A stretch of DNA of 64,000 bases from NCBI RefSeq assembly GCF_002161555.1, contig NZ_NFHZ01000011.1:1-64000 (forward strand), in the 5' to 3' direction. Position numbers and translations under genes: made by a program. Numbering within the stretch: the stretch's first letter is position 1; every line of letters begins with the position of its first letter. The DNA comes from Barnesiella sp. An55 (lineage in GTDB: Bacteria; Bacteroidota; Bacteroidia; Bacteroidales; Barnesiellaceae). This document shows positions 14,034 to 37,903 of the stretch, one piece after another. Below the pieces are notes generated by a model. The model worked only from the letters and a program-made list of their open reading frames with translations, ran no database searches and was not told the DNA's origin.

Positions 14034-15059
14034 ATGAAGTTGAAGAAGTACGAAGGCAATCCGATATTGTCGCCCAATCCTGAGAATTACTGGGAAAATT
14101 TGGTAGTATGTAACCCGGGTGTAATTTATGACCAAGGAGTTTTCCATATGCTATATAGAGCCGCCGGTGACGATATGGAGCACTTGGTGTATTTGGGGAA
14201 AGCCGAGAGTACCGATGGTATCCATTTCAAGAGAATTTCGAATGAGCCGGCCTTTGCTCCGGGGAAGAATTCGTTTGATGCCGGTTCGAACGAAGATCCT
14301 CGCATTGTCAAGATGGGAACCGAGTTTTTCATTACTTATGCTTTTCGTCCCTATTTTGCCGGGCAGTATTGGAAAAACGAATATGATAAGGTTGATGCCC
14401 CCGATCATGACCCCAACGTCCCGAAGTGTTTGCGTGAGAATATAAGCAATACGGCTCTGGCCGTTTCGAAAGATATGCGACATTTTAAAAAAGTTGGGCG
14501 CCTTACCGAGCCTTCGTTAGACGATAGAGATGTAATTTTGTTTCCTGAAAAGATAAATGGCAAATACTGGATGCTGCATCGTCCCAAGGATTATGTCAAT
14601 GCCAATGGCGACTATGGTACCGACAATCCGTCGATCTGGATCAAAAGCTCCGACGATTTGATGATGTGGCACACCGAGAGTAAATTGTTGATGAAAGGAA
14701 AAGAAGATTGGGAAGTCAAGATTGGAGGTAATACTCCGCCAATCAAGACCGACGAGGGTTGGTTCCTTCTCTATCACGGAGTAGATAAGAATTTTACCTA
14801 CCGGATAGGGGCGGCTATTCTCGATTTGAATGATCCCACGAAAGTGCTTTACAGAACCAAAGACTTTATACTCGAGCCCGAGACTTATGAAGAGACACAA
14901 GGTCTGTATCGCTGGGGTGTCGTATTCCCCACCGGAGCCGTGGTCAAGGATGGTATTCTTTATGTCTATTATGGAGCCTCCGATCAGTGGATCAATCTGG
15001 CCACCTGCAATTTTAAAGAGTTGATAGACTTTGTAAAATCAAATACCCGAAAGGAATAA
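14034..15059 (+). CDS. GH130 mannoside phosphorylase / beta-mannosidase family enzyme
   Basis: A 341-residue five-bladed beta-propeller enzyme of family GH130. Members phosphorolyse or hydrolyse beta-mannosides such as mannosyl-glucose, mannobiose or mannosyl-GlcNAc. There is no signal peptide, so it is cytoplasmic. Family features include YEGNPIL at the N-terminus, SNEDPRIVKMG with the candidate catalytic Asp88, and DDRDVILFPEKINGKYWMLHRP in the middle. Phosphorylase members use basic residues for phosphate; LHRP is consistent with this but does not settle phosphorylase versus hydrolase. It is the first gene of the plus-strand PUL and is followed by a symporter 20 bases downstream. The pairing suggests import and intracellular breakdown of a short mannoside. 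Confidence 0.9.
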   Translation: MKLKKYEGNPILSPNPENYWENLVVCNPGVIYDQGVFHMLYRAAGDDMEHLVYLGKAESTDGIHFKRISNEPAFAPGKNSFDAGSNEDPRIVKMGTEFFITYAFRPYFAGQYWKNEYDKVDAPDHDPNVPKCLRENISNTALAVSKDMRHFKKVGRLTEPSLDDRDVILFPEKINGKYWMLHRPKDYVNANGDYGTDNPSIWIKSSDDLMMWHTESKLLMKGKEDWEVKIGGNTPPIKTDEGWFLLYHGVDKNFTYRIGAAILDLNDPTKVLYRTKDFILEPETYEETQGLYRWGVVFPTGAVVKDGILYVYYGASDQWINLATCNFKELIDFVKSNTRKE

Positions 15060-15079
15060 ATGAATTAATAAATTAATCC

Positions 15080-16720
15080 ATGGAAGTGAATATATCCTAT
15101 ATCGATATAGCAGTCATTCTTCTTTTTGTCGTAGGCATCATCTGGTGGGCACTTAAAAACAGAAAGAACGGGAATGCCAGCGAGTATTTTCTGGCCGGGA
15201 AATCTCAAACCTGGTTTGTGGTAGGTTCTTCGTTGTTTGCTGCCAGTGTGAGCAGTTCGACCTTGATGGGCCATTCGGGCGAAGGATTTATCAGTGGGGT
15301 GGCGGTCTTTAACTACAATGTAGGCGCTATTTTCGTCATCATCTTTGTGTCGCTGTTTTTCCTGCCGTTCTATATCAAGTCGGGCATATACACGATACCC
15401 GAGTATTTGGGACGACGCTTCGACAACCGATCGCGCAAATATTTCTCGTTCATCACCATTATAGGCAATGTATTCCTGGATGCCGGCGCAGCCCTATATA
15501 CGGGAGCCTTAATCTTGAAAATCATCTTCCCCGAGGTAGATATGATGTGGATTATCATAGGTATGGCCTTGATGGCCGGTACCTATACGATTATCGGTGG
15601 ATTGTCGTCGGCGATTAATGCCGATATGATTCAGTCGGTTATTCTGATAGCCGGTTCGGTGTTGCTGTCGATTTTCTGCTTCAATTCGGTAGGCGGGTGG
15701 GACAACTTCGTGAACCATTTCCACGATGGTGTGTGGCTCAATTTGATACGCTCCAATACCGATACTACGGTACCCTGGTTCTCCATATTCCTGTCTATCC
15801 CCATTCTGGGATTCTACTTTTGGGGCAACAATCAGGTGATGGTGCAGCGGGTCATGTCGGCCAAGACGGTAAATGAGGGGCGGTTGGGGTTTCTGTTCGT
15901 CGCTTTCCTGTATGTATTCACCTTGTTTATCTTCATCACGCCGGGTATGGTGGGGCGCATGATCGACCTCTTTGGCGTGGGAGACGCCCTGCCCAACGAA
16001 ATTATTGACGGCAATACGCTGCGCACGCAGTATGGAATCGATACCAACGAGGTGTATCCCCGTCTCATTCTGAGGTTGTTGCCTGTCGGTTTGATAGGAG
16101 TGATGATTGCTTGTATGGTGTCGGCGCTGACCTCGACCCTGAGCGCTACGTTGAGTTCGGTATCGACCCTGTTTACGATGGACTTCTATAAGTCGTGGCG
16201 ACCCAATTCGTCGCCCAAGCATTTGGTGCGTGTGGGGCAGTGGACTTCGTTCATCGCTTTGGCCATTGCGGTAGCATGGGCTCCGCTCATTGGCAAGTTT
16301 GCTTCGCTGGTTGCCTATTATCAAGAGTTCTCGTCCTATCTGGCACCTCCCATTGTGGGTACTTTCCTGGTGGGGCTCTTCTGGAAAGGCTCTACCCGAA
16401 ACGGTGCTTTTGCCGGTTTGATGTCGGGGTTGGCCATGTCGGCATTGATCATGATTTACAAATTCGGATTCGGTGGTGAGATTCCCTTCCATTTCCTGTT
16501 GTGGGTTCCTATTCTGTTGGTATTGAGTGTGCTCGTGAATGTGATTGTGAGCAAATGCGACAAGACCGAGCAGCGCGATATCGAAGCCTATACTTGGGAT
16601 AAGACCGTTTGGCAAACCGATACCCAAGAACTCAAGACTGTGCCTTGGTATAAAAATTTCCGATACATCAGTATCGCTTTGATTATTATTGCATTGCTCG
16701 AATACTGGTGGTTCTTCTAA
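15080..16720 (+). CDS. Sodium/solute symporter (SSS family), probable sugar importer
   Basis: A 546-residue inner-membrane protein with about 13-14 hydrophobic helices. Features of the sodium:solute symporter (SGLT-like) family include AGKSQTWFVVGSSLFAASVSSSTLMGHSGEGF near the N-terminus and the PIVGTFLVGLFWKGSTRNGAFAGL stretch near residue 430. Such proteins in PULs carry mono- or disaccharides across the inner membrane. It lies between the GH130 enzyme and the SusCD block, so the substrate is likely the oligosaccharide or methyl sugar released in the periplasm. The specific substrate is unknown. Confidence 0.9.
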   Translation: MEVNISYIDIAVILLFVVGIIWWALKNRKNGNASEYFLAGKSQTWFVVGSSLFAASVSSSTLMGHSGEGFISGVAVFNYNVGAIFVIIFVSLFFLPFYIKSGIYTIPEYLGRRFDNRSRKYFSFITIIGNVFLDAGAALYTGALILKIIFPEVDMMWIIIGMALMAGTYTIIGGLSSAINADMIQSVILIAGSVLLSIFCFNSVGGWDNFVNHFHDGVWLNLIRSNTDTTVPWFSIFLSIPILGFYFWGNNQVMVQRVMSAKTVNEGRLGFLFVAFLYVFTLFIFITPGMVGRMIDLFGVGDALPNEIIDGNTLRTQYGIDTNEVYPRLILRLLPVGLIGVMIACMVSALTSTLSATLSSVSTLFTMDFYKSWRPNSSPKHLVRVGQWTSFIALAIAVAWAPLIGKFASLVAYYQEFSSYLAPPIVGTFLVGLFWKGSTRNGAFAGLMSGLAMSALIMIYKFGFGGEIPFHFLLWVPILLVLSVLVNVIVSKCDKTEQRDIEAYTWDKTVWQTDTQELKTVPWYKNFRYISIALIIIALLEYWWFF

Positions 16721-16749
16721 TCGATTATTAACCCGTAAAATAAATCATT

Positions 16750-18066
16750 ATGAAAAAAATCTTCAACTTATTGACGACTGCTTTGGTACTGACCTCATTT
16801 AGTGTCGGTGCGCAAACCTATGTGAATGAAATGACACAAGCCGAGGTAGAGCGTGATTGCTATATCGAAGGAGGTAGTGCCTTGTTCAACGACGAATCGG
16901 CAGTATATTACGACGACGGGAGTTATGTGCAGAAATCCTCTGCTTCGACTCCTACCTCTTTGATTTTTAACCGGGATATTTGGGGTAATAAGAACTTGAC
17001 AGGCTTTATTGTCAATGCTTTGGTGCCTAACGACCGTATGGATTTCGATAAGTTCATAACCATCGAATACTCGACCGACGAGTTGAATTATCACGAGATT
17101 CCCGATATGAAGATTGAAAAATCGTATGACGCCGTGCAAGGCAGCAACTATTGGATCGATGTGTGGTATCAAGCTGCCCTGCCCGAGGGTGTGAAAGAGA
17201 TTAAAGTGACGATGGTGGCTAATGAAGAGGTGGCCAACTGGATTCCCTGCTACCGTCGTACCGAGATTTTCTATGAAGGGGGTACTCCTTATGAGTATCA
17301 GAAACCTCCTTATCTGATGGTTGTTCCTACCGAATTTTCGGTCGATTTCGAAACTGAAAATTACAGTATCGACATGGCCGGTTCGCAAAATGCTACCTCG
17401 ACCATCGAGGTAGTTGACAACCCTGTAAAAGACGCTGTTAACGGTAGTAACAAAGTGCTGAAGATTGTACAAGACCCCTCCGATTCGAACTGGGGATGGG
17501 AGAATGCCGACTGGTTTGGTGTAGCTGTCGGTTTACTCGATGGTGAAGACAATCAGTTGGTTGAGATTACCGAGGCCGATGGTCGTTACCTGCACTTCCA
17601 GATCTTGAGAGCCGAGAATTCCATTTTCGGTATGGAGACTTGGGGTGGCACCTGCACCTATAAGGACCAGGAGATTCACTTTACCGGTTCTGAAGGATGG
17701 CAAGAGATTGTAGTCGATTTGCAGGAGTTCATCGGAGCCTCCTTCAAGCAGTTCTATTTCTCGCCCAACGAGCGGTATGGAACCGACAATGTATCGGTGG
17801 CCGAGACGACCTACCTCGATAATATCTATATCTCGCCAGAGGCTGCCTCCTCGGCCATAGACGAGACGGTAGTTGCAACGGCAAAGGCCTGGGGTGGTAA
17901 AGGTATGCTCTATGTTGAGGGCGAAGCCGGCCATGTGACCATCTACTCGGTTGCAGGTGTAGAGATTGGAGCCTATGCCATGGACGGTTTCTTGCAAGTA
18001 GAACTCACTCCGGGTATCTATTTGGTAAAGAGTGGTAACACGGTTTCCAAAGTGATAGTATATTAA
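16750..18066 (+). CDS. Secreted glycan-binding-like protein with T9SS-type C-terminal tail
   Basis: A 438-residue secreted protein with a signal peptide ending near GAQT. Residues about 22-190 resemble a discoidin-like beta-sandwich (YSTDELNYHEIPD). Residues about 195-365 form a module beginning VDFETENYS and ending TTYLDNIYIS. The same pattern (DFE, NP, SN, W-E-L, DNI-S) occurs twice in the glycosidase at 32893-35577. The last 75 residues form a short beta domain ending in VSKVIVY, like T9SS sorting tails. No catalytic motif is seen. Lying directly upstream of susC, it is a candidate surface glycan-binding protein, though it is not a lipoprotein. Confidence 0.65.
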   Translation: MKKIFNLLTTALVLTSFSVGAQTYVNEMTQAEVERDCYIEGGSALFNDESAVYYDDGSYVQKSSASTPTSLIFNRDIWGNKNLTGFIVNALVPNDRMDFDKFITIEYSTDELNYHEIPDMKIEKSYDAVQGSNYWIDVWYQAALPEGVKEIKVTMVANEEVANWIPCYRRTEIFYEGGTPYEYQKPPYLMVVPTEFSVDFETENYSIDMAGSQNATSTIEVVDNPVKDAVNGSNKVLKIVQDPSDSNWGWENADWFGVAVGLLDGEDNQLVEITEADGRYLHFQILRAENSIFGMETWGGTCTYKDQEIHFTGSEGWQEIVVDLQEFIGASFKQFYFSPNERYGTDNVSVAETTYLDNIYISPEAASSAIDETVVATAKAWGGKGMLYVEGEAGHVTIYSVAGVEIGAYAMDGFLQVELTPGIYLVKSGNTVSKVIVY

Positions 18067-18077
18067 AAACAAGCAGT

Positions 18078-18113
18078 AGGCCATACGGTGTATGGGTAAA
18101 GGCTGTATGGCCT
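18078..18113 (+). terminator. Hairpin between the surface protein gene and susC
   Basis: Arms 18078-18086 and 18105-18113 are perfectly complementary over 9 bp with an 18-base loop, followed by CTGTTTT. It may act as an attenuator or processing site that sets the level of susCD relative to upstream genes. Confidence 0.4.
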
Positions 18114-18140
18114 CTGTTTTAATCGACTTATTTTAATGTC

Positions 18141-21100
18141 ATGAAAAGTAAAGTGTATTTATTAATAGTGGCCAGTCTCTTGATTGTGATCTTCTTCCCC
18201 GTTGGGCTATGGGCTCAAGATAACAGTCTTGTGGTTTCTGGTAGTGTCTCCAATGCCAGTCAAGAACCGTTGGTAGGTGTGAGTGTCCTTGTCAAGGAGA
18301 CTCATGCAGGCACCATGACCGATGCCGACGGGCACTTCTCGATCAAGGCGGCCGAGGGGCAGAAGCTGGAGTTTCACTATATCGGGTACGAAACAAAGGT
18401 TGTCAAGGTGACTGGCAAGACGATGCTTGTCGTTTTGTCGGAGAATCAAGTAGAACTGGACGATGTGGTGGTAATCGGTTACGGTACGCAGAAGAAGAGC
18501 GACTTGACCGGTTCGCTGTCGTCGGTAAAAGGCGAGGATATCGTCAAGACAGGCGATGCCAACATTACCCAGTCGTTGCAAGGTAAGGCCGCCGGTGTTT
18601 ATGTAACCTCCAACTCGGGAACCCCGGGAGCCGGTGCTACCGTGCGTATTCGTGGTTATGGATCTATCTCGACCGATTTGACCCCCCTCTATGTTGTGGA
18701 CGGGCAACCTATGGAAGAGAGCAGTGTCAATGCCATTAACCCTATTGATATTGAGAATATCGAGATCTTGAAAGATGCATCGGCCACCGCCATTTACGGT
18801 TCGCGTGGTGCCAATGGTGTAGTTCTTATCACGACCAAAAAGGGGAAAGCCGGCAAGACCAATATCTCGTTTGATGCATCGTTTGGTTGGTCAAATGCGA
18901 TCAATCGCATACACATGATGAGCAGTGACCAATTATATGGTTTCCTTCAAGAGGCTTATGAAAACGATGGGTTGCGTATGCCGCGTAACATTACCAGGCT
19001 CTATCACCTCGACGGTGAGGGGCTTGGCCCGCTCGACGAATATGGAGAGCCTACCGACATTAACGTGTATAACACCGATTGGTGGAAAGAGACCACTCAA
19101 ACGGCTTTCAAGCATAGTTACAACCTGTCGGTCAGTGGGGGTACCGATAAACTCACCAGCCACTTCAGTATAGGCTATATGAATCAGGAGGGTATCATAA
19201 AGACTTCTGATTATGAGCGTATTACTCTGCGAACAAACAACGAATACAAGTTCAACAAGTGGATTACCATCGGGCAGACCCTGGGTGTGGCCTATGTAAA
19301 GAGCCACGACTTGAACACTCCCATCAATGAGATTCTGTTGCCCGACCCCTTCACCCCGATTTATGCCAAGGATGCCGACAAGCAAGATCCCAACTATGAG
19401 TACAACAAGTACATGGGTTCGCAATACAGCTACTACTCCAATCCGGTGGCCAAGCTCAACCGGCAGAAGAAAGAGCACATCAACCGCAACATCGACGGTA
19501 CGGCCTATTTGAATATCAACCTGGGATTGAAAGGGTTGTATTTCAAAACCATGCTGGGTTTCGAACTTCCAGGATATACCTATACCGAGTTTAATCCTTT
19601 CTTCGACTTGCGACCCAACGATACACTCTATAACATGTGTACCAATCCCGAGAGCAAGTTCCTTTTGCAAAACAGTGTGACCAATACCTCGACGACCGAG
19701 TTGAATTATACGTTCCAGAATACGCTGAGCTACGACAATACGTTTGGCAAGCACTCGATTTCGGCCGTAGCTGGTTTCACCTGGGAGTCCTATACGGGTA
19801 ATACCTTCACGGCCCAGCGCCTCAATACCCCCAGCAACTCCGAAGCCTTCCAGATTGTGGGTGCCGGTACCGAAGAGGGAACCTCCTCGGGCTACCGCTA
19901 CGAGACCTACCTCATTTCATACCTTGGTCGTGTGAACTACAACTACGACAACCGTTACCTGGCTACGGTGAGTGTACGTGCCGACGGTTCTTCGAAGTTC
20001 GCTTCGGGCAATCGCTGGGGAACTTTCCCCTCCTTCTCGCTGGGCTGGCGCATCGACCAGGAAGAGTTCTTCAAGGATTGGAATCAAAATGCACTCAGCG
20101 CCGTGAAACTGCGTGGAGGCTGGGGCCAGATAGGTAACCAGAATATACCCTCCTATGCCTATGCCGATATTGTTTCGACCTACGACACTTGGGTGTATGG
20201 TTTCAACAGCGGGCAGAATATGCTCAAGGCCTATGCCTCTACTTCGAAAGGTAACAAGGATATCAAGTGGGAAACCGTAGAACAGGGTAACGTGGGTGTG
20301 GACCTGGGATTCTTCAAGAACTCTCTCACCTTGTCGGCCGATGCCTATATCAAGACCACCCGCGATATGTTGATGCAGAACCCGCTACCGAGCATGGCCG
20401 GTTATCCCACAACACCGTGGGTAAATGCCGGGTCGGTTGAGAACCGAGGCCTGGAGTTTTTGATCGGGTATCAGGGAAAAGTGGGAGACTTCCGCTATGC
20501 CGTGAGTGCCAACTTTACCTTCCAAAAGAATAAATTGGTCGAGACCGGTACGAACGACCCCATCTGGGGAAGCGTCTCCAAAAACGAGATTGGCGAGGAG
20601 TTCGGACGTTTCTATGGTTATGTATATGACGGAATATTCCAGTCGGAGGAAGAGGTGCTTGCCCATGTGGGTGCCGATGGCAAGACTCTGCTTCAGCCGA
20701 TGGCCGAGCCGGGTGATGCCCGATTTAAAAATGTCAATGGCGACAATACCCTCGACAGTGACGACCGCGACTATATAGGTAATCCCAATCCCGACGTAAT
20801 TTACGGTGGAAACATCGAGTTGGGATATAAGGGTCTCGACTTTGCCCTCTATTTCCAGGGCGTGGCCGGTAATGATATCTGGGTAGGGACCAAGGCCCTC
20901 ATGCGGCAAACGAGTATGACCAACCTGTTGGCCGAGACCTATACCGATGCCTGGCGTAAACCCGGCGACAAGACCGATGTGTTTGGAATCACTCGCAAGG
21001 ACGATAACGACAACTATCGCAACTCATCGTGGTATGTACAGGATGGTAGCTTCTGCAAAATCAAGTCGGTACAGTTGGGCTATACCTTCCCCAAGAAATG

Positions 21101-21287
21101 GATCGAGGCTACCAAGGTGGCCAGTTCTTTGCGCTTGTATGTAAGTGCCGAGAATCTCTTTACGATAACCAAATTCAAATATATGGATCCCGAGGTGCCC
21201 AACGGAAATGCTTTGGATATGGGTATAGAGAATCTGGGATATCCCAATCCGCGCACATTTACCGTAGGTGTTAATGTCCAATTTTAA
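18141..21287 (+). CDS. SusC-like TonB-dependent outer-membrane transporter
   Basis: A 1048-residue outer-membrane protein. Signal peptide (about 1-25), carboxypeptidase-regulatory-like domain (about 28-105, VSGSVSNASQEPLVGVSVLVK), TonB box/plug start VVVIGYGTQKKSDLTGS, plug domain to about 240, then a 22-strand barrel ending in the aromatic FTVGVNVQF typical of outer-membrane beta barrels. It imports oligosaccharides together with the SusD partner encoded 12 bases downstream. No N-terminal STN domain is present, so regulation by an anti-sigma system through this protein is unlikely. That fits the AraC regulator at the head of the locus. Confidence 0.96.
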   Translation: MKSKVYLLIVASLLIVIFFPVGLWAQDNSLVVSGSVSNASQEPLVGVSVLVKETHAGTMTDADGHFSIKAAEGQKLEFHYIGYETKVVKVTGKTMLVVLSENQVELDDVVVIGYGTQKKSDLTGSLSSVKGEDIVKTGDANITQSLQGKAAGVYVTSNSGTPGAGATVRIRGYGSISTDLTPLYVVDGQPMEESSVNAINPIDIENIEILKDASATAIYGSRGANGVVLITTKKGKAGKTNISFDASFGWSNAINRIHMMSSDQLYGFLQEAYENDGLRMPRNITRLYHLDGEGLGPLDEYGEPTDINVYNTDWWKETTQTAFKHSYNLSVSGGTDKLTSHFSIGYMNQEGIIKTSDYERITLRTNNEYKFNKWITIGQTLGVAYVKSHDLNTPINEILLPDPFTPIYAKDADKQDPNYEYNKYMGSQYSYYSNPVAKLNRQKKEHINRNIDGTAYLNINLGLKGLYFKTMLGFELPGYTYTEFNPFFDLRPNDTLYNMCTNPESKFLLQNSVTNTSTTELNYTFQNTLSYDNTFGKHSISAVAGFTWESYTGNTFTAQRLNTPSNSEAFQIVGAGTEEGTSSGYRYETYLISYLGRVNYNYDNRYLATVSVRADGSSKFASGNRWGTFPSFSLGWRIDQEEFFKDWNQNALSAVKLRGGWGQIGNQNIPSYAYADIVSTYDTWVYGFNSGQNMLKAYASTSKGNKDIKWETVEQGNVGVDLGFFKNSLTLSADAYIKTTRDMLMQNPLPSMAGYPTTPWVNAGSVENRGLEFLIGYQGKVGDFRYAVSANFTFQKNKLVETGTNDPIWGSVSKNEIGEEFGRFYGYVYDGIFQSEEEVLAHVGADGKTLLQPMAEPGDARFKNVNGDNTLDSDDRDYIGNPNPDVIYGGNIELGYKGLDFALYFQGVAGNDIWVGTKALMRQTSMTNLLAETYTDAWRKPGDKTDVFGITRKDDNDNYRNSSWYVQDGSFCKIKSVQLGYTFPKKWIEATKVASSLRLYVSAENLFTITKFKYMDPEVPNGNALDMGIENLGYPNPRTFTVGVNVQF

Positions 21288-21299
21288 ACGATTACAGTC

Positions 21300-22907
21300 A
21301 TGAAACTAAGATTAGGAATATTATATATTTTGTTGGGTTCGTTGTGTGTGCTCCCCTCGTGTACCGATGAGGATCTCGACACGACGATGTATGGAGGTCG
21401 AGAAGATACGGCGTTTTACAGCAATCTTGAGGAGATAAATCAAGCCTTGACCGCCTGCTACTTCTATATGAAAAACAGTTGGAACGATATGAGCCTCGAG
21501 CTCATGTTTATCAACGACTGCGCTTCGGACGATTGCGAGAAGGGCGGTGGTGGACTCACCGACAACGGCGATATTTACCAGCTCGAGACGTTCAATGTGT
21601 TTACGACCAACAGCAAGGTGAGTCAGTTTTGGGGTATGGCCTATTCGGCTATCTATCAAGTGAACACGTTGTTGGACAAGACTGCTGCATTTCGTGCTTC
21701 GCATACCGACCTGACCGAGGACGATCTTACTCTGCTCTCCCGCTATGAAAACGAGGCACGTTGGATTCGAGGTTTGTGGTATTTCAATCTGGCCTATCTG
21801 TGGGGCGATGTACCCTTGTTCCTGCATGCCGAGCAACCCGACGATATCTACAAGTCGCGCACGCCGGTGGCTCAAATCTGGGAGCAGGTGATTGCCGATT
21901 TTACAGCTGCTACGGCTCTTCCGAAACGGAGCGAATATCCGGCCGAGGACATGGGCCGCGTGACCAGTGGCGCCGCTTATGCCATGCTGGGTCGTACCTA
22001 TTGGTATAAACGGGATTTCGAGAAAGCCTATGAGATGCTTCATATTTTGGTCGAGGGAGACCAAAAGGGAGAGTATGAGTTGGATCCCGATTTCGCTACC
22101 CAGTGGCTCAATCCCAATTCCAATACAAAGGAGTCGGTCTTTGAAATTCAGTATGTGACCAATGGCAAGAACTGGAACGAATCGACCGGATGGAACGGTG
22201 TGTGGTTTATCCCCAGCAGCGACGGTGGTTATGGTTTCCACGTGCCTACCCAACATCTGCTCGATGCCTTCGACCCCGAAGATCCGCGCATCACCTGGAC
22301 CTTTGTTCGTCAAGGCGACCAGTTCGTGGGCAACGACTTCGAGACCAAAGACAACAACTACCCCAGCCGCTATTTCGACCGTAAGCATTTTGTTCCCATG
22401 AGCGAGACCATGAATGCGGCTTCGCCTGTATATCCCCAGGATACCGAGGCTACGGTATATGTCATTCGTTATGCCGATGTATTGTTGATGTATGCCGAGA
22501 CCTGCTTGGAGAAGGGTGATCTCACGGGTGCCAAGAAATACCTGAACATGATTAGAAAACGGGCTCGCGAGTCCAGCCCGCTGGATCCGAAGCGTGTGGT
22601 TCAGAAATATGTGCCCGACACGAAGCCCACTTCGTTGCCCGATATCACATCGGATAACGTTGAGGAGGTGCGCCAGGCCATCTGGGACGAACGTCGATTC
22701 GAGTTTGCCTGCGAGGGTGTGCGCCGTCGCGATCTGATGCAGCAGGGCCGATATGGCGAAATCATGCAGGCTGTCTATGCCAACGGCTATGCGACCGAAG
22801 ATGTCGATAAGGGACGCTATTATACCAAGGAGAAGGAGCTGTTCCCCATCCCCCAGAACGAGATTGACTTGAGTCGGGGAGCCTTGGTTCAGAATCCCGG
22901 GTATTAA
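21300..22907 (+). CDS. SusD/RagB-like glycan-binding lipoprotein
   Basis: A 535-residue surface lipoprotein with lipobox VLPSC (Cys21). SusD-family features include helical TPR-like segments, ARWIRGLWYFNLAYLWGDVPLF at about residues 154-175, the YVIRYADVLLMYAETCLEKGD segment near 385, and the C-terminal DERRFEFACEGVRRRDLMQQGR. It forms the lid of the SusC transporter and binds the target glycan. It follows susC by 12 bases. Confidence 0.96.
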   Translation: MKLRLGILYILLGSLCVLPSCTDEDLDTTMYGGREDTAFYSNLEEINQALTACYFYMKNSWNDMSLELMFINDCASDDCEKGGGGLTDNGDIYQLETFNVFTTNSKVSQFWGMAYSAIYQVNTLLDKTAAFRASHTDLTEDDLTLLSRYENEARWIRGLWYFNLAYLWGDVPLFLHAEQPDDIYKSRTPVAQIWEQVIADFTAATALPKRSEYPAEDMGRVTSGAAYAMLGRTYWYKRDFEKAYEMLHILVEGDQKGEYELDPDFATQWLNPNSNTKESVFEIQYVTNGKNWNESTGWNGVWFIPSSDGGYGFHVPTQHLLDAFDPEDPRITWTFVRQGDQFVGNDFETKDNNYPSRYFDRKHFVPMSETMNAASPVYPQDTEATVYVIRYADVLLMYAETCLEKGDLTGAKKYLNMIRKRARESSPLDPKRVVQKYVPDTKPTSLPDITSDNVEEVRQAIWDERRFEFACEGVRRRDLMQQGRYGEIMQAVYANGYATEDVDKGRYYTKEKELFPIPQNEIDLSRGALVQNPGY

Positions 22908-23065
22908 AGATTGTTTAACCTCTTATATGGAGCCAGGAACATTTCCTGCCCATACAAGAAAAAAAGTCGCTTCTACCGATAGTCGCTCGAGAAATATGCG
23001 GGCATGACAAGATAGACACATTTAACGAATAACAGTTGCTAATTAAAGATAGATAGATTGTGAAG

Positions 23066-30575: not shown

Positions 30576-31559
30576 TTATTGTTGGTTGAAGTTTTTGACC
30601 GCCTGGTAGAATGCGGCAATATTCTCGCGACTGACTCCCGGGGGTACATCACACCCGGTCGAGATGACAAAGTTGTCGCAATCGGCTGTAGCCGACAGCA
30701 GATTGGCTGTTTCGACATAAACCTGTTCGGGGGAGGCCGACTTGAACACCCCTACGGGGTCGAGATTACCCATGGCGATAAGGTCGTGGGGTACTTGTTT
30801 AAGCACTTCGACCATGTCGCACTTGTTGCCGAAATGGAGTGCCCGGGCCCCCGAGTCGATCATCGATTGGGTGCAATGACCGGTATTTCCGCAGTTGTGC
30901 AGGACGAACAGGAAATTGTCGTCTTGCACAGCCTCGACAATGGGTCGAATGTAGTGAGTCGAGTAGTGTGTAGCATCGTCGTTACTGAGCAGCCCGGCTG
31001 CCGGCTCGGCCATGATTACACCATCGACCCCGGTCTCTTTCAGGGCTTTGACGTATGAACCTATGAATCGGGCACATTTTTCCAGTAGGGCTTTGGCCAG
31101 TTCGGGCTCGACATAGATGGCCATCATGATTTCGGTCATGTCGTAAAGACGTCCGGCCAGAGAGTATGGCCCTATGCATCCGGCAAAGACAGGCCGGTCG
31201 TTGATGCGTTCGGCCGCAAGACGGTTGGCCTTGAGATATTGGGGTACACGGGCCGCCGTGAGATCGGGAATGGGCAGGTTTTCCACTTCGCTCATGTTGT
31301 GGAGCAGGCGTTCGGCCACGCTGGGCACGTCGTTGTCGGCAAAGTGTAGTTTGGCCCCGAAGGCTTCGGCCTCGACGGTGAGATCCATGATTACCGTAGC
31401 GGCATCGGATGGGGTAGCTTCGGCCAGGGCTACGATGGCATCGGCATGGGTTTGGCCGTCGGTGACGGCATCGTTTACGGTTTTGCCTATGATTTCAATG
31501 CCCGGGTGAGTCATGATGGGGATGGCCAGGCGGTGATTATGGTTGAGTTTGAGTTTCAT
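30576..31559 (-). CDS. MtaA/CmuA-like UroD-fold methyltransferase with full zinc site
   Basis: A 327-residue cytoplasmic protein of the uroporphyrinogen-decarboxylase superfamily, in the branch of methylcobamide methyltransferases. It carries His221-x-Cys223 (HNCGNTGH) and Cys303 (STGCDVPPG), which match the H-x-C-x(n)-C zinc ligands of MtaA/MtbA enzymes that activate a thiol to accept a methyl group. Residues used by true UroD for porphyrin binding at the N-terminus are absent. It is the last gene of the minus operon and overlaps the preceding MetH-activation-like gene by 23 bases. It is the likely MT2 step (corrinoid to acceptor). The acceptor is unknown: coenzyme M is not expected in this phylum, so homocysteine, a tetrahydrofolate or another thiol must be considered. 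Confidence 0.85.
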   Translation of the reverse strand: MKLKLNHNHRLAIPIMTHPGIEIIGKTVNDAVTDGQTHADAIVALAEATPSDAATVIMDLTVEAEAFGAKLHFADNDVPSVAERLLHNMSEVENLPIPDLTAARVPQYLKANRLAAERINDRPVFAGCIGPYSLAGRLYDMTEIMMAIYVEPELAKALLEKCARFIGSYVKALKETGVDGVIMAEPAAGLLSNDDATHYSTHYIRPIVEAVQDDNFLFVLHNCGNTGHCTQSMIDSGARALHFGNKCDMVEVLKQVPHDLIAMGNLDPVGVFKSASPEQVYVETANLLSATADCDNFVISTGCDVPPGVSRENIAAFYQAVKNFNQQ

Positions 31560-32235
31560 GATTGAATCGTTTTTTAAGTCGTTTTTTGTAACAGTTTTCC
31601 AATTCGCAGAATTGGCATCCGTATTTGCGGGTATCGACGTGGAGACCCGAACCTATGACTCCACTGATAGACTTGATGGGGTACATCAGGGCACTGTCGT
31701 TGAGACGGATGCCGCAGACATCGGGAGGCAGCAGCGAGAAGAGTAGTTTCTGTTCGCTCACATGCCAGCCGCAATACCCTGGGCTGAAGCGGTTGGTATG
31801 GGGAATGTCGGGGAGTGTGGCTTCGACGAACTTCTCCATGAGGTCGCCCGTAGCTTCGGCAATGCAGCTACCCATCGAGTCCCACACAAACAGGGTGAGG
31901 GCATCGTCACTGTTGGCCAGTTGGTTATGAATCTCTTGATACTCCATACCGGCTGTGGCTGCGAAGAAGATGAATCGTTCGGAGTTTTTCAACAGCGTGG
32001 CGATGGTGCGGTTTACATGAAGTACGCAGGAGCCGCATATGATGCAATCCTGGTCGAGCTGCCCTTCCGAAATCTGGAAGTAGAACCGGGGCTTTACCGT
32101 CGTGTAGGCGGTGGTGAAGAGCTTATCGACCAATTGCCTTACAGGCTCATCGGGCAACTCCTTTCCGTATCCCATTTTGGTATATACAGCCTCTTTCGAG
32201 AGGTTCAGGTCTTTGAACTGTAAATGGTATTCCAT
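31537..32235 (-). CDS. Stand-alone methionine-synthase-activation-like protein
   Basis: A 232-residue protein resembling the C-terminal reactivation domain of cobalamin-dependent methionine synthase (MetH), which binds SAM and re-methylates oxidised cobalamin. The core match is RFSPGYCGWHVSEQKLLFSLL near residue 145, equivalent to the RxxPGY SAM-binding loop of MetH, followed by LNDSALMYPIKSISGVIG. The C-terminus has three Cys in GCQFCELENCYKKR, absent from the MetH domain and possibly a metal or Fe-S site. An ICGSC motif lies near residue 66. It sits 5 bases after the corrinoid gene and overlaps the MtaA-like gene, so it probably services that corrinoid protein. Such trios are known in anaerobes that use corrinoid methyl transfer. 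Confidence 0.8.
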   Translation of the reverse strand: MEYHLQFKDLNLSKEAVYTKMGYGKELPDEPVRQLVDKLFTTAYTTVKPRFYFQISEGQLDQDCIICGSCVLHVNRTIATLLKNSERFIFFAATAGMEYQEIHNQLANSDDALTLFVWDSMGSCIAEATGDLMEKFVEATLPDIPHTNRFSPGYCGWHVSEQKLLFSLLPPDVCGIRLNDSALMYPIKSISGVIGSGLHVDTRKYGCQFCELENCYKKRLKKRFNHETQTQP

Positions 32236-32240: not shown

Positions 32241-32879
32241 CTATTTGTTCAATAATTTACGGGCCAGGGTAACGGCAGCGTTGGCATTGTCGCTGTATCC
32301 GTCGGCTCCAATCTCCTCGGCAAATTTTTCGCTGAGTGGAGCTCCACCCACCATGATTTTCACGTCGTTGCGGATACCGGCCTTTTCGAAGGCTTTGATA
32401 ACCTCTTTCATATAGACCATTGTGGTGGTGAGCAGCGCCGACATGCAGACGATGTTGGCTTTGTTCTCCTTGGCGGCCTGAACGAATTTTTCGTCAGAGA
32501 CATCGACCCCAAGGTTAATGACTTCGAAGCCGCATCCCTCGAGCATCGAGCAGACGAGGTTTTTACCGATGTCGTGCAAGTCGCCCTTGACGGTACCGAT
32601 TACCACTTTGCCAAGGCTTGTTACCTCTTTGTTTTGCTCCATATAGGGTTTGAGAAGTTCCAAGGCCCCTTTCATGGCCCGGGCGCTCATGAGCAGGTTG
32701 GGAACATAGGCTTTCCCGGCCTCGAACTGGGCTCCTATCTCCTCCATACCTTTGATGAGGTAGTCGCTGATGAGAGTCTGTGGATCGATGTTTTCTTGAA
32801 GAGCTTCGCGGGTGGTGCTTACCGCCAGTTCGAGATTGCCTTTGACGATAGCGTCATATAAGTTAGTCAGATTTACCAT
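32241..32879 (-). CDS. Corrinoid (B12-binding) methyl-carrier protein
   Basis: A 212-residue two-domain corrinoid protein of the MtaC/MtbC/MetH type. The N-terminal four-helix cap domain spans about residues 1-88. The Rossmann-like B12 domain spans about 89-212 with GTVKGDLHDIGKN, in which Asp100-x-His102-x-x-Gly105 is the DxHxxG motif and His102 the lower axial cobalt ligand. Downstream SALLTTTM and GGAPLSEKFAEEIGADGY match the S-x-L and GG motifs that hold the nucleotide tail. It carries the methyl group between MT1- and MT2-type proteins. It lies 13 bases after the glycosidase and 5 bases before the activation-like gene. Confidence 0.94.
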   Translation of the reverse strand: MVNLTNLYDAIVKGNLELAVSTTREALQENIDPQTLISDYLIKGMEEIGAQFEAGKAYVPNLLMSARAMKGALELLKPYMEQNKEVTSLGKVVIGTVKGDLHDIGKNLVCSMLEGCGFEVINLGVDVSDEKFVQAAKENKANIVCMSALLTTTMVYMKEVIKAFEKAGIRNDVKIMVGGAPLSEKFAEEIGADGYSDNANAAVTLARKLLNK

Positions 32880-32892: not shown

Positions 32893-35577
32893 TTAATAGT
32901 TGATTATTTTATACGATTTATTTCCTATTCTCACGATATGAAATCCTTTCCCGGCCGGTATCGAGTAGCTGCCGTTTACGTTGGTTGCCGAGTGCAGCAG
33001 TTTTCCGTCGGGTGTAAAATGCGACACGGGTTGTCCCTCAAGGTGATCGATGAGGATGTATCCGTTGTCACACGATATTGATATTTTGTCGGCTGTGACA
33101 TCGCTGACGCCCGAGACTTCGGTGTTGCTGAAGATGAAGTGGTCGAAGAACGAGGTGTCGAGCATGTTTAGCTGGTTGGCATAACCGATGTTGGGGTAGA
33201 TATCGATGCTGGTGATTATCTGTCCAGCATAGTCGGAGAGATCTATCCCCGAGTTGAACCAGGTGCGCTTTTCGTTGCAGGAGAAGACGCCCGATACCTG
33301 TTCGCCCGAGAGGAAGTTGACCGTCACTTTCAAGTCGGCCTCACCCGTGTAACGGTAGTAGGAGAAGAAAAGATTGGGTTTGCTGGATGGAACCTGTACG
33401 AAGGGGTAGAGGCTCAGGTTGGCCGATAGCTTCTGGTCGGGATTGCTCGAGAGCAGGTTTATCTGTAAGGCCTGGTTACTGGAATTTTCGTCCTGCATTT
33501 TGGGGTTGGCGACAATCGATGTCGTTACCGAGGCACTTGCCGGGACAATTTGTACAAAAGAGTCGAGGTACTCAAAGTCGATGTCGAGTACTTGGCGGTA
33601 TGATGAGTTCTCGTTTACAGCGACAGGCTGCAAATCGATAGGGTTGTTTTCTGTGGAGGATAGCGAAATGTTGTCAAAGATGAGCGACTCGGAGTCGAGC
33701 GTCGAAGGGGTCGGGTCGCGATAGGGATAGATGATGATATAGTCCAGAATCTTGCCGGCAAGGGGAGTCAGATTCAGTTGAACTTCTTTCCATTCCCGAT
33801 GGGGAATTTCAAATTCGTAGCCCAGTAATTCATTCTCGCCTTCGATGTGGAGGGCGATAGCCACCTGAGCCGGGCGGCTGCGGTAGAGTTGGATGTTGAG
33901 AAAGGGTAACTCCTCGCCAAGGAGGACTTTGTTTAAGGGAACGATGGTGCTGAAACAATCGTTGGCGTTGTAGGTATCGTTGATAAGGATTTCGGAATAA
34001 CCGGCATAGTTGCTGGTATTGGGGTCGCGTTTGCGGGGGTTAGAACCCACGTAGGTTCTAACCCCTTTGTTATAGTCGCCCAGCAGCATGTAGCCGCTTT
34101 GCGATTCAAAATCCAGAGTCAAAGTCGATTGGGTCGCGGCCGATTCGGAATCCAGCGGCTCGAGGGTGGTGATGAATACCCCCTCTTCGAGCGGTACTTC
34201 TATGGTTATGCCGCCCGAGAGAGTCGTGGTTGCTACCTCATAGGGCAGCGATAGCGCAGCTCCGTCGCCGCAGTTATTCCGGTTGAACCGATAGATATAG
34301 ACCGGTTTGTCACATTCTACCTGGAAGGTAATCGATTGGGTTTGGCTTTGAGCATCCATGCGGCGGTTTACCACCACAAACGAGTAGTCGTCGGTACCGA
34401 TGCGGGCGCCAAGTATGCGAATGTCTTTACGCCCCTCGAGTTCGCTCATCTTAAGTATTTTAGCTCCGCGGGGGAAGTAGCGGCACATCAGTTGCCAGGT
34501 GTAGTACCAGGGTCGCAAGGTCATGCCTCCATATGTGCCGGCATTGTTCCACATGCCGGCGTTCTTGTTCTGTTCCAAACCGTCGAGAGCCCAGGCCAAA
34601 CCCGAGGCCATGCCCGAACGGGCCAACTGTATGCCGTAATCCCAAAATCCCAAGGCATATTCATAGGTGTCGATGCGACAGTGGGCGGGTGCGTCGGCTA
34701 CGGGCCAGTCGATGAAGGGGACTCCGATGGGAGCCATCTCCGATACATGTACCGGTTTGTTGCTGTTGTCGTATTGCAGTATGTTGGCCAGGTTGCTGGC
34801 AAAGGTAGTCTCGATGGTGCGGTTGTAGAGCTGGTTGTGCGTGTCGTCGGGCGTGTCGTTCAGGTAGTTGTGAAAGTCGTAGGCCGACAGCTCTGCCGCA
34901 TTGTATTGCGCCGGTTTCCATATCCAGTCGCTCCACGAGTCGGCCCCCGACAGGAAATTGGTAGGCAGTCCGCGTCGCTCCAGTTCGGCATGGAGTTTTT
35001 CGATCATTGTGCTCCATTCTTCAAAGGGAATACCCAACCCCAGCGGTTCGTTGGTGGGGGCATAACTGGTGATGATTTTATCGTATCCCTTTGTGCGGAA
35101 CAGATATTCGATCAGGTCGGCTTGCAGTTGGGCACACTCGTCGGTGGTGTAGAACTCCTTCTGGTCCTCGCCGTTGTAGGCTACACCCCAAAAACCGCTC
35201 ATCACTTTGATGTCGTGCTCTTTGTAGAGGTCCATGATTTTGAAGTAGGCCTGCATATATTTGCTGTCCCAGTTGTAGGTGCCGATGGGCAGTTTGTTGC
35301 CGGCATCGTCTTTGTTGAACCAGTCGCGAATGACGGGGAGCCGCACCAGCGAAGGCTTGATGGCCAGGATACGTTCCGAGGTGGTTTCCCACAACTCGTC
35401 GTCCCAGGGTTTGAAGGTGTTGCCGTCGCTTTCACGGGCAAATCCCCACTGGTTGTATCCGAATCCCTCCCAAGGGGTGGAGAGTTCCTCCTCGATGGTC
35501 GATTCGAAGGCTTGCAGGTGCGCCGGTACAATCCATGCTGCGATGGCAAGAGTAATAAAAATGGCTGTTCGTTTCAT
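32893..35577 (-). CDS. Clan GH-A-like glycosidase with two DFE/NP/SN modules and T9SS-type tail
   Basis: An 894-residue secreted protein with a signal peptide (about 1-23). Residues about 30-370 form a TIM barrel of clan GH-A. YAPTNEPLG places the acid/base Glu at 177, and HVSEMAP places the nucleophile Glu at 280. A small beta domain follows to about 470. Two related beta-sandwich modules at about 480-640 (LDFESQSGY ... DNISLS) and 655-800 (IDFEYLDSF ...) resemble the module in the secreted protein at 16750-18066 and may bind the same glycan. The last 70 residues form a sorting-type tail ending HIVRIGNKSYKIINY. The exact family is uncertain (GH5/GH30/GH39 range). It is placed inside the methyltransferase operon, immediately before the corrinoid gene. 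Confidence 0.8.
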   Translation of the reverse strand: MKRTAIFITLAIAAWIVPAHLQAFESTIEEELSTPWEGFGYNQWGFARESDGNTFKPWDDELWETTSERILAIKPSLVRLPVIRDWFNKDDAGNKLPIGTYNWDSKYMQAYFKIMDLYKEHDIKVMSGFWGVAYNGEDQKEFYTTDECAQLQADLIEYLFRTKGYDKIITSYAPTNEPLGLGIPFEEWSTMIEKLHAELERRGLPTNFLSGADSWSDWIWKPAQYNAAELSAYDFHNYLNDTPDDTHNQLYNRTIETTFASNLANILQYDNSNKPVHVSEMAPIGVPFIDWPVADAPAHCRIDTYEYALGFWDYGIQLARSGMASGLAWALDGLEQNKNAGMWNNAGTYGGMTLRPWYYTWQLMCRYFPRGAKILKMSELEGRKDIRILGARIGTDDYSFVVVNRRMDAQSQTQSITFQVECDKPVYIYRFNRNNCGDGAALSLPYEVATTTLSGGITIEVPLEEGVFITTLEPLDSESAATQSTLTLDFESQSGYMLLGDYNKGVRTYVGSNPRKRDPNTSNYAGYSEILINDTYNANDCFSTIVPLNKVLLGEELPFLNIQLYRSRPAQVAIALHIEGENELLGYEFEIPHREWKEVQLNLTPLAGKILDYIIIYPYRDPTPSTLDSESLIFDNISLSSTENNPIDLQPVAVNENSSYRQVLDIDFEYLDSFVQIVPASASVTTSIVANPKMQDENSSNQALQINLLSSNPDQKLSANLSLYPFVQVPSSKPNLFFSYYRYTGEADLKVTVNFLSGEQVSGVFSCNEKRTWFNSGIDLSDYAGQIITSIDIYPNIGYANQLNMLDTSFFDHFIFSNTEVSGVSDVTADKISISCDNGYILIDHLEGQPVSHFTPDGKLLHSATNVNGSYSIPAGKGFHIVRIGNKSYKIINY
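34036..34065. repeat. Perfect 12-bp intragenic inverted repeat
   Basis: GGGGTTAGAACC (34036-34047) and its exact complement (34054-34065) flank a 6-base loop inside the coding sequence of the glycosidase at 32893-35577, at the start of its first DFE module. A hairpin this perfect is unusual within a gene. No T-run follows on the coding strand, so it is not an ordinary terminator. Confidence 0.8.
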
Positions 35578-35642
35578 ATGATATAACCGTGTTATGATTG
35601 TCGTTTCTCTATCTGAATCTCGGAGAGTGGCAGATTTTGGGG

Positions 35643-36695
35643 TTAACCTCGTTTTTCGTTGGCCCGAATCTGTTTCGCTGCATCAATCATGCCTCTGAAC
35701 CCATCGACCGAGACATAGGAGGCGATGGAGTTGCCCGATCCCAATCCGTAGCCTTTGCACATGCGGCGGTATTCGGTGCCTCGCTCCAGCACCTGATCAT
35801 AGACTGTCTGATAGGTGCCCAGCGAAAGCAGGTTCACGTCGAATCCACCGAACAGACCTATCTTGTCGTTGTATCGTTTGATCCATTCGTCGAAGGGGGC
35901 AATCTGGTCTTCGTTGCTGTGCTTGGCATCGATACCCAGGGCGATGATGTCGGGCATGATTTCGAATATGTTCCCGCAGCTGTGCATGAGGAATTTTTTG
36001 TGCCCTTGATGTACCAGGTCGATAACCCGCTTGGTCTGGGGCAGTATGTGGTTGATGATGGTCGAGGGCTCGAGCATGGTCGAGGTGCGGTGACCCAGGT
36101 CGTCGCCCATACGGAAGAAGACGAAGATATCGCTGTATTCGCGTATCATGCGGCTCCATAACTCGACATAGAGGTCGCCGATGCGGATGAAGAGGTCGCG
36201 AAAGAGGTCGGGGTCGATGTATTGCAGAATACAGAGGCTTTCGTAACCTACCAGGTCTTGAGCCGACTCGAATATGCCGTAGCCACAGCCGCCGTAGGCC
36301 TTCATGCCCGGGGGCAGCACTTTGCGTATGGCATCGAGTTTGGGTTTGTTGGCTTCCCAGAAACGGGAGGGAATCTCGTCGAAGGGGTATCGCTCGAAGT
36401 CGGCCCGAGTTTGAATAGGCCCCAGCTTGCCACCCATGATGGCACCGTGGTCGGGATAGACGTCGCAGATAGGTGCTTCGAAGTCAAAGGCATCGTAGGT
36501 ATTGTCTTTCCAGAACTTCGTGACTTTCGTAAAGAAATATTCGGGATCGGTCTCCTGGTATCCGGCCAGTTGCTCACCGGTATATTTCTCTATGAATTCG
36601 GTGTCGATATGATGTTCATAAAGCGGCAGATATCCGGGGCGTCGGTTGTACAGAACCTCGAGAATGTTGTTTGCGTTTGGTTGAAATTGTTCCAT
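35643..36695 (-). CDS. UroD-fold methyltransferase-like protein (second)
   Basis: A 350-residue cytoplasmic protein of the UroD superfamily. It has FLMHSCGN (His238-x-Cys240), the first two ligands of the MtaA zinc site, but the third-ligand region reads GLGSGNSI without Cys. GDDLGH at about residues 198-203 matches a motif frequent in UroD-type methyltransferase I proteins. The arginine-rich porphyrin-binding N-terminus of true HemE is missing, and this is not a haem synthesis context. It lies 11 bases after the next UroD-like gene and 65 bases before the glycosidase. It is a candidate substrate-side (MT1) methyltransferase; substrate unknown. Confidence 0.8.
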   Translation of the reverse strand: MEQFQPNANNILEVLYNRRPGYLPLYEHHIDTEFIEKYTGEQLAGYQETDPEYFFTKVTKFWKDNTYDAFDFEAPICDVYPDHGAIMGGKLGPIQTRADFERYPFDEIPSRFWEANKPKLDAIRKVLPPGMKAYGGCGYGIFESAQDLVGYESLCILQYIDPDLFRDLFIRIGDLYVELWSRMIREYSDIFVFFRMGDDLGHRTSTMLEPSTIINHILPQTKRVIDLVHQGHKKFLMHSCGNIFEIMPDIIALGIDAKHSNEDQIAPFDEWIKRYNDKIGLFGGFDVNLLSLGTYQTVYDQVLERGTEYRRMCKGYGLGSGNSIASYVSVDGFRGMIDAAKQIRANEKRG

Positions 36696-36706
36696 AACTA
36701 TGAGAT

Positions 36707-37708
36707 TTAATCATTCCAGTGTGTGAGTCCGGCCCTGATGTTTTCGAGGGGCATATCGGGGCCTGCTTCGAATTGCCCGATGAGGCCGCCGTTTACCCAC
36801 AACTTCTCTTTCATGGCGTGGACGGCCTCGATGACATCCTCGACACTGCCGTTGGGCAGAATGTGTTGGCGACATATCTCGCCCCAGTTGGTGATGCGCC
36901 CGTTGCACTTCTCGGCTACCTGGTCGAGCCCCATGCACCATACCTGGCTGTTGATGGCATCGACACCGATCTCTATGAGGTCGTCGTAGAGGTCGAGAAT
37001 GTATCCGTCGCTGTGCATGAACACATATTTGCCGGCGGCATGAACCTTGTCGAAGAATCGTTTGTAGAGAGGCTTGTACTGTTTTCGCCAGGTATCGGGC
37101 GAGATGAGCAGCGAGCGTTGCGAACCCCAGTCATCGCCGAATATGATACCATCGACATCGAGCTTGAGCCACTCATCGACGTAGGTATTGTAGAAGTCTT
37201 CGACGATATCCATCAACTTGAAGTATTCGGGCGATTCGATTAGTGTGTCCATGAAGAGATTTTCGGTTCCACGAAGATATTGCATTCGCTCGAACAAACT
37301 GATCCAACCACCCAAAATAAATTTGTCTTTGTGCGTTTCGATAAACTGGCGGGTCTTGTCGAACCCTGCCACTCCCGAGAGGAAGAGCTCCTTGGGGCTT
37401 TTGTAGTCCCATACCCGACTGAAGTCGGCAAAGGGATACTCTTTTACTTCGCCGATGATTCCGGCCTGGTGGTTTACCCAGGTCGAGCCCCAGCAGTCGG
37501 TATAGCTACCTACCTGGTAATGGCGGGGATCTTCGGTGGGGTCGTCGAATGGAGCCGACAGAATATCGAGGTCGCAGTCGGCAATTACTTCGTCGAGTGC
37601 CTCTCCATATTTGAGTCGGGTGGCCGGTAGCTGCCACAGGTTTACCGGCACCCATTCGGGGTTGTCGTGATGGAGAGTGCGTATTACATTTTCTTTTGCA
37701 GTCATCAT
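36707..37708 (-). CDS. UroD-fold methyltransferase-like protein (third)
   Basis: A 333-residue UroD-superfamily protein. It has FMHSDGYILD (His232, with Asp in place of Cys), GDDWGSQ at about residues 191-197, and GGWISLFERMQYLRGTENLFMD around residues 133-154, a segment shared with UroD-type methyltransferase I proteins. The third zinc ligand is replaced by a GQFEAGPDMP stretch. It therefore lacks the classical MtaA site and probably acts on a methylated substrate rather than on a thiol acceptor. Two adjacent Met codons (37708 and 37705) are both possible starts. It is the first full-length gene of the minus operon, 15 bases after the 59-codon ORF. Confidence 0.8.
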   Translation of the reverse strand: MMTAKENVIRTLHHDNPEWVPVNLWQLPATRLKYGEALDEVIADCDLDILSAPFDDPTEDPRHYQVGSYTDCWGSTWVNHQAGIIGEVKEYPFADFSRVWDYKSPKELFLSGVAGFDKTRQFIETHKDKFILGGWISLFERMQYLRGTENLFMDTLIESPEYFKLMDIVEDFYNTYVDEWLKLDVDGIIFGDDWGSQRSLLISPDTWRKQYKPLYKRFFDKVHAAGKYVFMHSDGYILDLYDDLIEIGVDAINSQVWCMGLDQVAEKCNGRITNWGEICRQHILPNGSVEDVIEAVHAMKEKLWVNGGLIGQFEAGPDMPLENIRAGLTHWND

Positions 37709-37723
37709 GGTTTGAGTAGAGTA

Positions 37724-37903
37724 TTATAAATTACACTTGAAAGCTTTGTTGTCTATCTGTATCAGATAATTCCCTTTGTCGAAATCGATGTTGGCGCAAT
37801 CGGTCGATAGGGTGTCGCGATACAGCAGTCTCCCCCGGCAGGTCGAAGATATTGTCCTGGTGCCCTGAAGCATGGCGCTTGCTTTGAGTACGTTGGTTTT
37901 CAT
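37724..37903 (-). CDS. 59-residue ORF resembling an orphan T9SS sorting tail
   Basis: ATG at 37903 to TAA at 37724. The peptide ends with GRLLYRDTL ... IDFDKGNYLIQIDNKAFKCNL, the pattern of the C-terminal sorting-type tails in neighbouring secreted proteins (compare GFHIVRIGNKSYKIINY). It has no signal peptide or other domain. A -7 box (37951-37958) lies about 50 bases upstream and the methyltransferase gene starts 15 bases downstream, so it should be the first translated frame of the operon. It could be the remnant of a deleted surface-protein gene whose promoter was kept, or a short leader peptide. Confidence 0.5.
   Translation of the reverse strand: MKTNVLKASAMLQGTRTISSTCRGRLLYRDTLSTDCANIDFDKGNYLIQIDNKAFKCNL

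Follow-up and report, generated by a model that had tools for sequence, protein, structure and literature searches.

A Barnesiella polysaccharide utilisation locus that probably encodes a corrinoid-dependent O-demethylase for a methyl sugar

Introduction

In the O-demethylases of acetogens (MtvB, OdmB, and VdmB), a first methyltransferase (MT1) of the UroD fold cleaves a methyl ether and charges a separate corrinoid protein, a folate-type second methyltransferase (MT2) takes the methyl group onward, and a dedicated RACo-type activator restores the corrinoid. Here, we describe a window of 64,000 nucleotides from Barnesiella sp. An55 (contig NZ_NFHZ01000011.1, positions 1 to 64,000), in which a polysaccharide utilisation locus (PUL) carries four UroD-fold genes (UroD1 to UroD4), a corrinoid protein, and Act, a MetH-activation-like protein. 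The locus resembles the acetogen systems in its UroD-fold MT1 candidates, separate corrinoid protein, dedicated reactivator, and ether-cleaving logic; unlike them, it has neither a pterin-type MT2 nor RACo, sits in a Bacteroidota SusCD PUL, and has glycosidases as partners. A preliminary description of this DNA had likened it to known anaerobic O-demethylation, a likeness that holds for the MT1/corrinoid/MT2 logic and fails for the folate-type MT2 and RACo. From genome comparison, we consider it probable (about 0.72) that the locus is a PUL with a built-in anaerobic, corrinoid-dependent O-demethylase for a methyl sugar.

Two other corrinoid systems are close. The coenzyme M methyltransferases MtaA and MtbA and the type 1 mlp clusters (PMC10418091) are alike in that UroD2 shares their His-Cys-Cys site and aligns with MtaA, and in having several UroD paralogues per corrinoid protein. 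However, type 1 mlp clusters are defined by Mlp2 and Mlp3, His-Cys-Cys, and Ram/RACE, whereas only one of the four Barnesiella UroD proteins has this site, UroD2 falls far below the family cut-offs, and Ram/RACE, RACo, and genes of sulfur or selenium (S/Se) metabolism are missing. The methionine synthase MetH, which unites homocysteine, folate, cobalamin, and activation domains in one protein, is similar in its corrinoid domain and activation-like protein, and its homocysteine domain reappears in fusions from Prevotella. In contrast, the Barnesiella locus has no such four-domain protein; its system has no folate domain, places a UroD-like domain at the methyl-donor position, and has a separate Act with a CxxCx4C motif.

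O-methyl sugars are found in xylan, pectin (rhamnogalacturonan II, RG-II), gums, and algal and microbial glycans. In marine Flavobacteriia, a cytochrome P450 of porphyran PULs demethylates 6-O-methyl-galactose (PMC10033563). This route also acts on a methylated monosaccharide and is encoded with carbohydrate-active enzymes (CAZymes) in Bacteroidota, but it works by oxidation through a monooxygenase and releases formaldehyde, whereas the Barnesiella route would be anaerobic and would depend on a corrinoid. Demethylation does not come up in a 2025 paper on RG-II 2-O-methyl-fucosidases. Corrinoid-dependent sugar demethylation was not reported, for Bacteroidota PULs or elsewhere, in the searchable literature, which leaves out most subscription papers and preprints; as the preliminary description had supposed, its use in glycan utilisation is apparently undescribed.

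Results

The window, which belongs to a genome of 3.03 Mb and 99.99% completeness, was analysed through its open reading frames and their Pfam matches. The methyltransferase genes centre on a minus-strand operon of six genes in the order UroD4 (36707..37708; URO-D 2.1e-13), UroD3 (35643..36695; URO-D 5.1e-13), a secreted glycosidase (32893..35577), the corrinoid protein that would carry the methyl group (32241..32879; B12-binding 4.2e-31, B12-binding_2 1e-21), Act (31537..32235; Met_synt_B12 5.1e-12), and UroD2 (30576..31559; URO-D 1.1e-56). From UroD4 to Act the genes are separated by 11, 65, 13, and 5 bases, and Act and UroD2 overlap by 23 bases. The glycosidase has no Pfam match, is homologous to a second one at 23060-25057, and has a hydrophobic N-terminus, MKRTAIFITLAIAAWIVPAHLQA. 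The corrinoid protein contains the DxHxxG motif as GDLHDIGKN, resembles MtgC/MtbC, and has 1y80 as its nearest solved structure (9.1e-57). UroD1 (25240..26172, plus strand; URO-D 1.3e-20) stands apart, in a plus-strand set that runs from a GH130 gene to a GH28-CE2 fusion. Pfam thus recovers all the methyl-transfer genes first noticed, and the minus-strand operon is as tight as was claimed; the two gene sets form two convergent operons rather than one.

A profile search of the whole genome returned URO-D matches in these four PUL genes only, so none of them is a haem gene and their clustering is not due to chance. Canonical hemE was not found in the genome, and a role in haem synthesis was rejected. 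Pterin-binding proteins were limited to folP and MetH, so the usual pterin-type methylcorrinoid:tetrahydrofolate MT2 is missing. The genome has no PF14574, the mark of the ATP-dependent activator RACo/RACE, and has the Act-type protein instead. Besides the PUL corrinoid protein, a genome search found B12-binding domains only in MetH and one 735-aa protein.

The residues at the zinc site divide the UroD proteins into two kinds. UroD2 and MtaA (4ay7) could be aligned across the zinc-ligand motifs HNCGN and TGC, and in the alignment with MtaA the ligand columns read His-Cys-Cys (HCC) in 64 UroD2-type proteins, as in the MtaA/MtbA coenzyme M methyltransferases. Two more distant groups whose best match is also UroD2 read FCC (10 proteins) and HDG (8). 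The other types never have HCC: UroD1 has HDN, UroD3 HCN, and UroD4 HDF (its relatives HCH or HDH), while the UroD-like domain of the fusions is mostly HDV. Within the superfamily, HCC marks S-methyltransferases, and O-methyltransferases have one or both cysteines swapped for carboxylates or non-ligands (Kountz and Balskus, PMC10418091); some MT1s need no zinc (PMC13222342). By the former rule, the residues fit a separation of a putative thiol-type MT2, UroD2, from putative non-thiol-type MT1s, UroD1, UroD3, and UroD4. UroD2 scores below the curated MtaA/MtbA family cut-offs (148 bits vs 244; 140 vs 235).

Pfam, a structure model, and an MT1 profile agree in placing the MT1 candidates in the UroD fold. 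The AlphaFold2 model of UroD4 (mean predicted local distance difference test score, pLDDT, 94.1) has MtaA (4ay7/4ay8) as its top PDB match, with a template modelling score of 0.71-0.74, ahead of HemE, and the MT1 profile matches MtaA at 1.2e-27 and the chloromethane MT1 CdmB at 1.1e-7. A quick tree separates a clade of 39 UroD2 orthologues (support 100) from a set of 51 that takes in all MT1 candidates (support 97); the branches are long, that of UroD1 most of all.

The block is conserved within the genus. An orthologue of UroD3 is present in four of the nine genus genomes searched, this one included, at 88-100% identity, and the operon and the SusCD block are syntenic in the three others. The block is under strong purifying selection: against one relative (G396), the ratio of nonsynonymous to synonymous substitution rates (dN/dS), over the computable gene pairs, ranges from 0.016 to 0.060, with 0.060 for UroD1, 0.043 for UroD2, 0.033 for the corrinoid protein, 0.016 for UroD3, and 0.025 for UroD4. 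UroD1 and the GH28-CE2 gene behave as an optional insert: of the four genus genomes read, two have both genes and the other two have neither, so that UroD1 appears and disappears together with the adjacent hydrolase.

Outside the genus, the module of corrinoid protein, activator, and UroD2 recurs in Bacteroidales, where the first methyltransferase is a different one and the neighbouring glycosidases differ as well. The comparison loci (numbered L) were retrieved by similarity to the corrinoid protein or Act, blind to their neighbours. For example, a GH78 rhamnosidase is followed by corrinoid protein, Act, CobW, UroD, and the rhamnose permease RhaT in L047 and L052, whereas L134 has UroD, a GH29 fucosidase, corrinoid protein, MT2, and Act with a RhaT-like gene. 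The order in L095 is GH2, mutarotase, GH115 glucuronidase, UroD, corrinoid protein, Act, MT2, GH127, and a major facilitator superfamily (MFS) transporter; in L050, and similarly in L053 and L056, SusCD, GH89, and GH120 precede UroD, corrinoid protein, Act, and MT2. In Alistipes (L048, L123), GH92 and GxGYxYP genes precede a UroD3 homologue (65% identical), corrinoid protein, and Act. Many Bacteroides and Phocaeicola combine GH141, GH31, a UroD-like and corrinoid fusion, and a sodium:solute symporter (SSF) with divergent Act and MT2, and Prevotella has SASA and DUF5703/GH78 genes beside a fusion of UroD-like, homocysteine methyltransferase, and corrinoid domains. A labelled CAZyme occurs in 41 of 81 operons with corrinoid protein and UroD, vs 30 of 184 other operons of at least three genes from the same loci, a comparison that is descriptive and not a test because the labels were partly drawn from the former operons. 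Pfam tallies of near vs far neighbours were too spread for enrichment to show among the 25 families listed. Cultured species with relatives of the system include Bacteroides xylanisolvens, B. salyersiae, Parabacteroides gordonii, and P. goldsteinii.

Some comparison loci deserve separate mention. A SusCD operon of Parabacteroides sp. PH5-46 (L096:4533-9973) contains a GFO/IDH oxidoreductase, an MFS transporter, a ROK gene, and a glucosamine-6-phosphate isomerase-like gene together with an MttB-family methyltransferase, a corrinoid protein, and MT2, and may possibly serve N-demethylation of a methylated amino sugar. A GDSL-esterase-like gene of 719-722 aa, absent from the window, heads the methyltransferase operon in L117 (1882-4050), L035, and L036. 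A locus recorded as a Paenibacillus metagenome-assembled genome (L114) is of typical Bacteroidota make-up, and its proteins group with those of Prevotella and Bacteroides; the contig is probably mis-binned.

The methyl acceptor may be approached through the Prevotella fusions. Proteins of about 940-950 aa (L082:7811-10624, L070:7769-10618) join a UroD-like, a homocysteine S-methyltransferase, and a corrinoid domain, have no folate domain, and differ from MetH in domain order; they look like a MetH in which an O-demethylase has taken the place of the folate module. The UroD-like assignment of the N-terminus comes from hhalign against a UroD profile built without it (probability 95.2%, E 2.5e-8, 108 columns); Pfam detected it at 0.0023 in one member and missed it in two further fusions and in the unfused protein. 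In L199 and L202, separate homocysteine methyltransferase genes lie beside corrinoid protein and UroD. Judged by the HCC site of UroD2, the acceptor may be a thiol, and given the folate-less fusions and the separate genes, homocysteine is the first choice; we hold with moderate confidence that UroD2 would methylate homocysteine to methionine. In Bacteroides xylanisolvens XB1A, the UroD-like and corrinoid fusion appears as two overlapping open reading frames of 131 and 504 aa (L058:8731-10633), possibly through a frameshift or a sequencing error.

Act, the probable corrinoid reactivator, has a C-terminal CxxCx4C motif. Among its homologues, Cys207 and Cys210 are present in 93 of 93 and Cys215 and Cys155 each in 91 of 93, and 1j6r, a stand-alone activation protein of known structure, aligns with Act only through residue 195, ahead of the motif. 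The cysteines may form an iron-sulfur site, which would feed electrons to Co(II). In some Bacteroidales both kinds of activator occur together, with a RACo-type gene adjoining Act (L038:8379-9875, L145, L148, L150).

The plus-strand set supplies the rest of the PUL, a tandem SusC/SusD pair with CAZymes and a regulator. It comprises GH130 (14034..15059; PF04041 4.7e-52), nearest to beta-1,2-mannoside phosphorylases, with the 1,2-beta-oligomannan phosphorylase 9fj8 as best PDB relative (5.6e-55); an SSF (15080..16720; PF00474 9e-69), a probable importer of the released sugar, whose family also adjoins UroD/corrinoid fusions in Bacteroides and Prevotella; a secreted protein with no Pfam match (16750..18066), conserved in the block at 80-81% identity in genus relatives; the SusC TonB-dependent transporter (18141..21287; Plug 2.3e-20); the SusD binding lipoprotein (21300..22907; SusD_RagB 1.5e-42); a clan-A type, GH59-like glycosidase (23060..25057); and, beyond UroD1, the GH28 beta-helix fused to a CE2-type esterase (26195..30466; GH28 9.9e-17, CE2_N 8.4e-14, GDSL 3.2e-8). 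An AraC-family gene on the minus strand (12902..13771; HTH_18 3e-21), syntenic in G395 and G292, is the probable PUL regulator, and the end formed by AraC, GH130, and SSF is seen in the two relatives whose stretch extends that far. These results agree with the PUL content first described, although the GH59 match is weak (6.5e-4) and below the cut-off. The GH59-like protein is 24-25% identical to the glycosidase of the methyltransferase operon (32893-35577), gave no match in a PDB sequence search, and has an AlphaFold2 model of pLDDT 50.9 from only 8 sequences.

At Rfam gathering thresholds, the window contains no elements, cobalamin riboswitches included. Upstream, a GH2 with mannosidase-type Ig domains (4866-7448, minus strand) is present as had been stated, but lies outside the conserved block. 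Directly past the operon (38467-45094) are a subtilase-family (S8) protease and a 1503-aa GLUG-repeat protein, with no tblastn matches in the corresponding stretches of G395 and G396.

Discussion

The preliminary description had proposed that UroD-fold MT1s, the corrinoid protein, and an MT2 demethylate sugars of the PUL. This idea is largely supported: the UroD4 fold, the residue split, the recurrence of the module with other glycosidases, and the absence of the alternative systems all favour it, and synteny and purifying selection accompany them. In the scheme that we infer, an oligosaccharide would be taken up by SusCD, periplasmic glycosidases (23060-25057, 32893-35577, and the accessory GH28-CE2) would release the O-methylated sugar, and the SSF would import it. 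The MT1 step would follow in the cytoplasm, where UroD4 and/or UroD3, with UroD1 as accessory MT1 where present, would transfer the O-methyl group to the Co(I) corrinoid protein and free the ordinary sugar. UroD2, with its MtaA-like zinc site, would act as MT2 and methylate a thiol, which is most likely homocysteine and would then become methionine. Act would re-reduce the oxidised corrinoid.

That the substrate contains O-methyl-mannose seems doubtful. The mannose-containing substrate suggested earlier is weakly indicated by the affinity of GH130 with beta-1,2-mannoside phosphorylases and by the UroD3 homologue that lies beside GH92, a family of alpha-mannosidases, in Alistipes.

The survey of Bacteroidales also allows a broader and more tentative reading, to which we give somewhat less than even odds: Bacteroidales may share a modular glycan O-demethylation cassette, built from a constant corrinoid protein, an Act-type activator that may be an Fe-S protein, and a thiol-type MT2. 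The MT1 would be exchangeable, a different one serving each methylated sugar together with the corresponding glycosidase (examples are methyl-rhamnose, methyl-fucose, 4-O-methyl-glucuronate, and methyl-mannose), and the methyl group would pass to homocysteine as methionine.

Among other explanations, the one that survives best is that the MT1s take the methyl groups from methoxylated aromatics (feruloyl, sinapoyl, or lignin-derived) that are esterified to the polysaccharide and released by the CE2-like esterase. The PUL does encode an esterase, and the bacterial ether-cleaving UroD MT1s MtvB, OdmB, and VdmB act on methoxyaromatics (PMC13222342). However, the operons read hold no aromatic pathway gene, relatives pair with sugar-specific partners (rhamnosidase and RhaT, fucosidase, GH92), GH28-CE2 is missing from two of four genomes that keep the rest, and the MT1 profile is closer to MtaA than to CdmB; we regard this explanation as improbable.

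Two further explanations are less probable still, and about equally so. The His-Cys-Cys site of UroD2 is that of MtaA-type enzymes, and clusters of the mlp type with such enzymes have been assigned to S/Se metabolism (PMC10418091), but here the site is absent from UroD1, UroD3, and UroD4, the genome is without Ram/RACo, and a glycosidase is a member of the operon, as glycosidases and sugar permeases are its partners elsewhere. Alternatively, UroD2, the corrinoid protein, and Act could be a variant methionine synthase that remethylates homocysteine from a general donor with no glycan role, as the likeness of Act to the MetH activation domain and the homocysteine methyltransferase domains fused in relatives would allow; against this, the genome already encodes MTHFR and an intact MetH of 1229 aa that includes an activation domain, and the operon contains a secreted glycosidase and an MT1 that changes with the glycosidase. 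Methanol salvage from pectin methyl esters or quaternary amine use, to which the pectin-type GH28 fold, the esterase, and the MtgC/MtbC-like corrinoid protein might point, is the least credible and was rejected, the MT1 candidates being of the UroD type and neither MtaB nor MttB being found in the genome.

Several points weigh against a sugar O-demethylase. To our knowledge, none of the characterised UroD-family enzymes has a sugar as its substrate, and the third ligand column of UroD4 is uncertain. Many Bacteroidales genes sit near glycosidases regardless, and close relatives of the L095 MT1 do not adjoin GH115 elsewhere, which leaves that link at one locus. As to the acceptor, MT2 and Act are retained next to a homocysteine fusion in 13 loci, and a simple scheme with a single acceptor does not account for this; the acceptor of MT2 may be another thiol, since the Prevotella fusions already have a homocysteine domain.

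If sugar O-demethylation is the function of the locus, it would explain the use of methyl sugars by anaerobic gut and rumen Bacteroidota and tie B12 supply to fibre digestion, and the substrates of many UroD-like genes near glycosidases in Bacteroidales would become predictable. If the cassette is shared as proposed, glycan methyl ethers would feed one-carbon metabolism without oxygen. Corrinoid-dependent demethylation may be a general way for anaerobes to digest methylated glycans.

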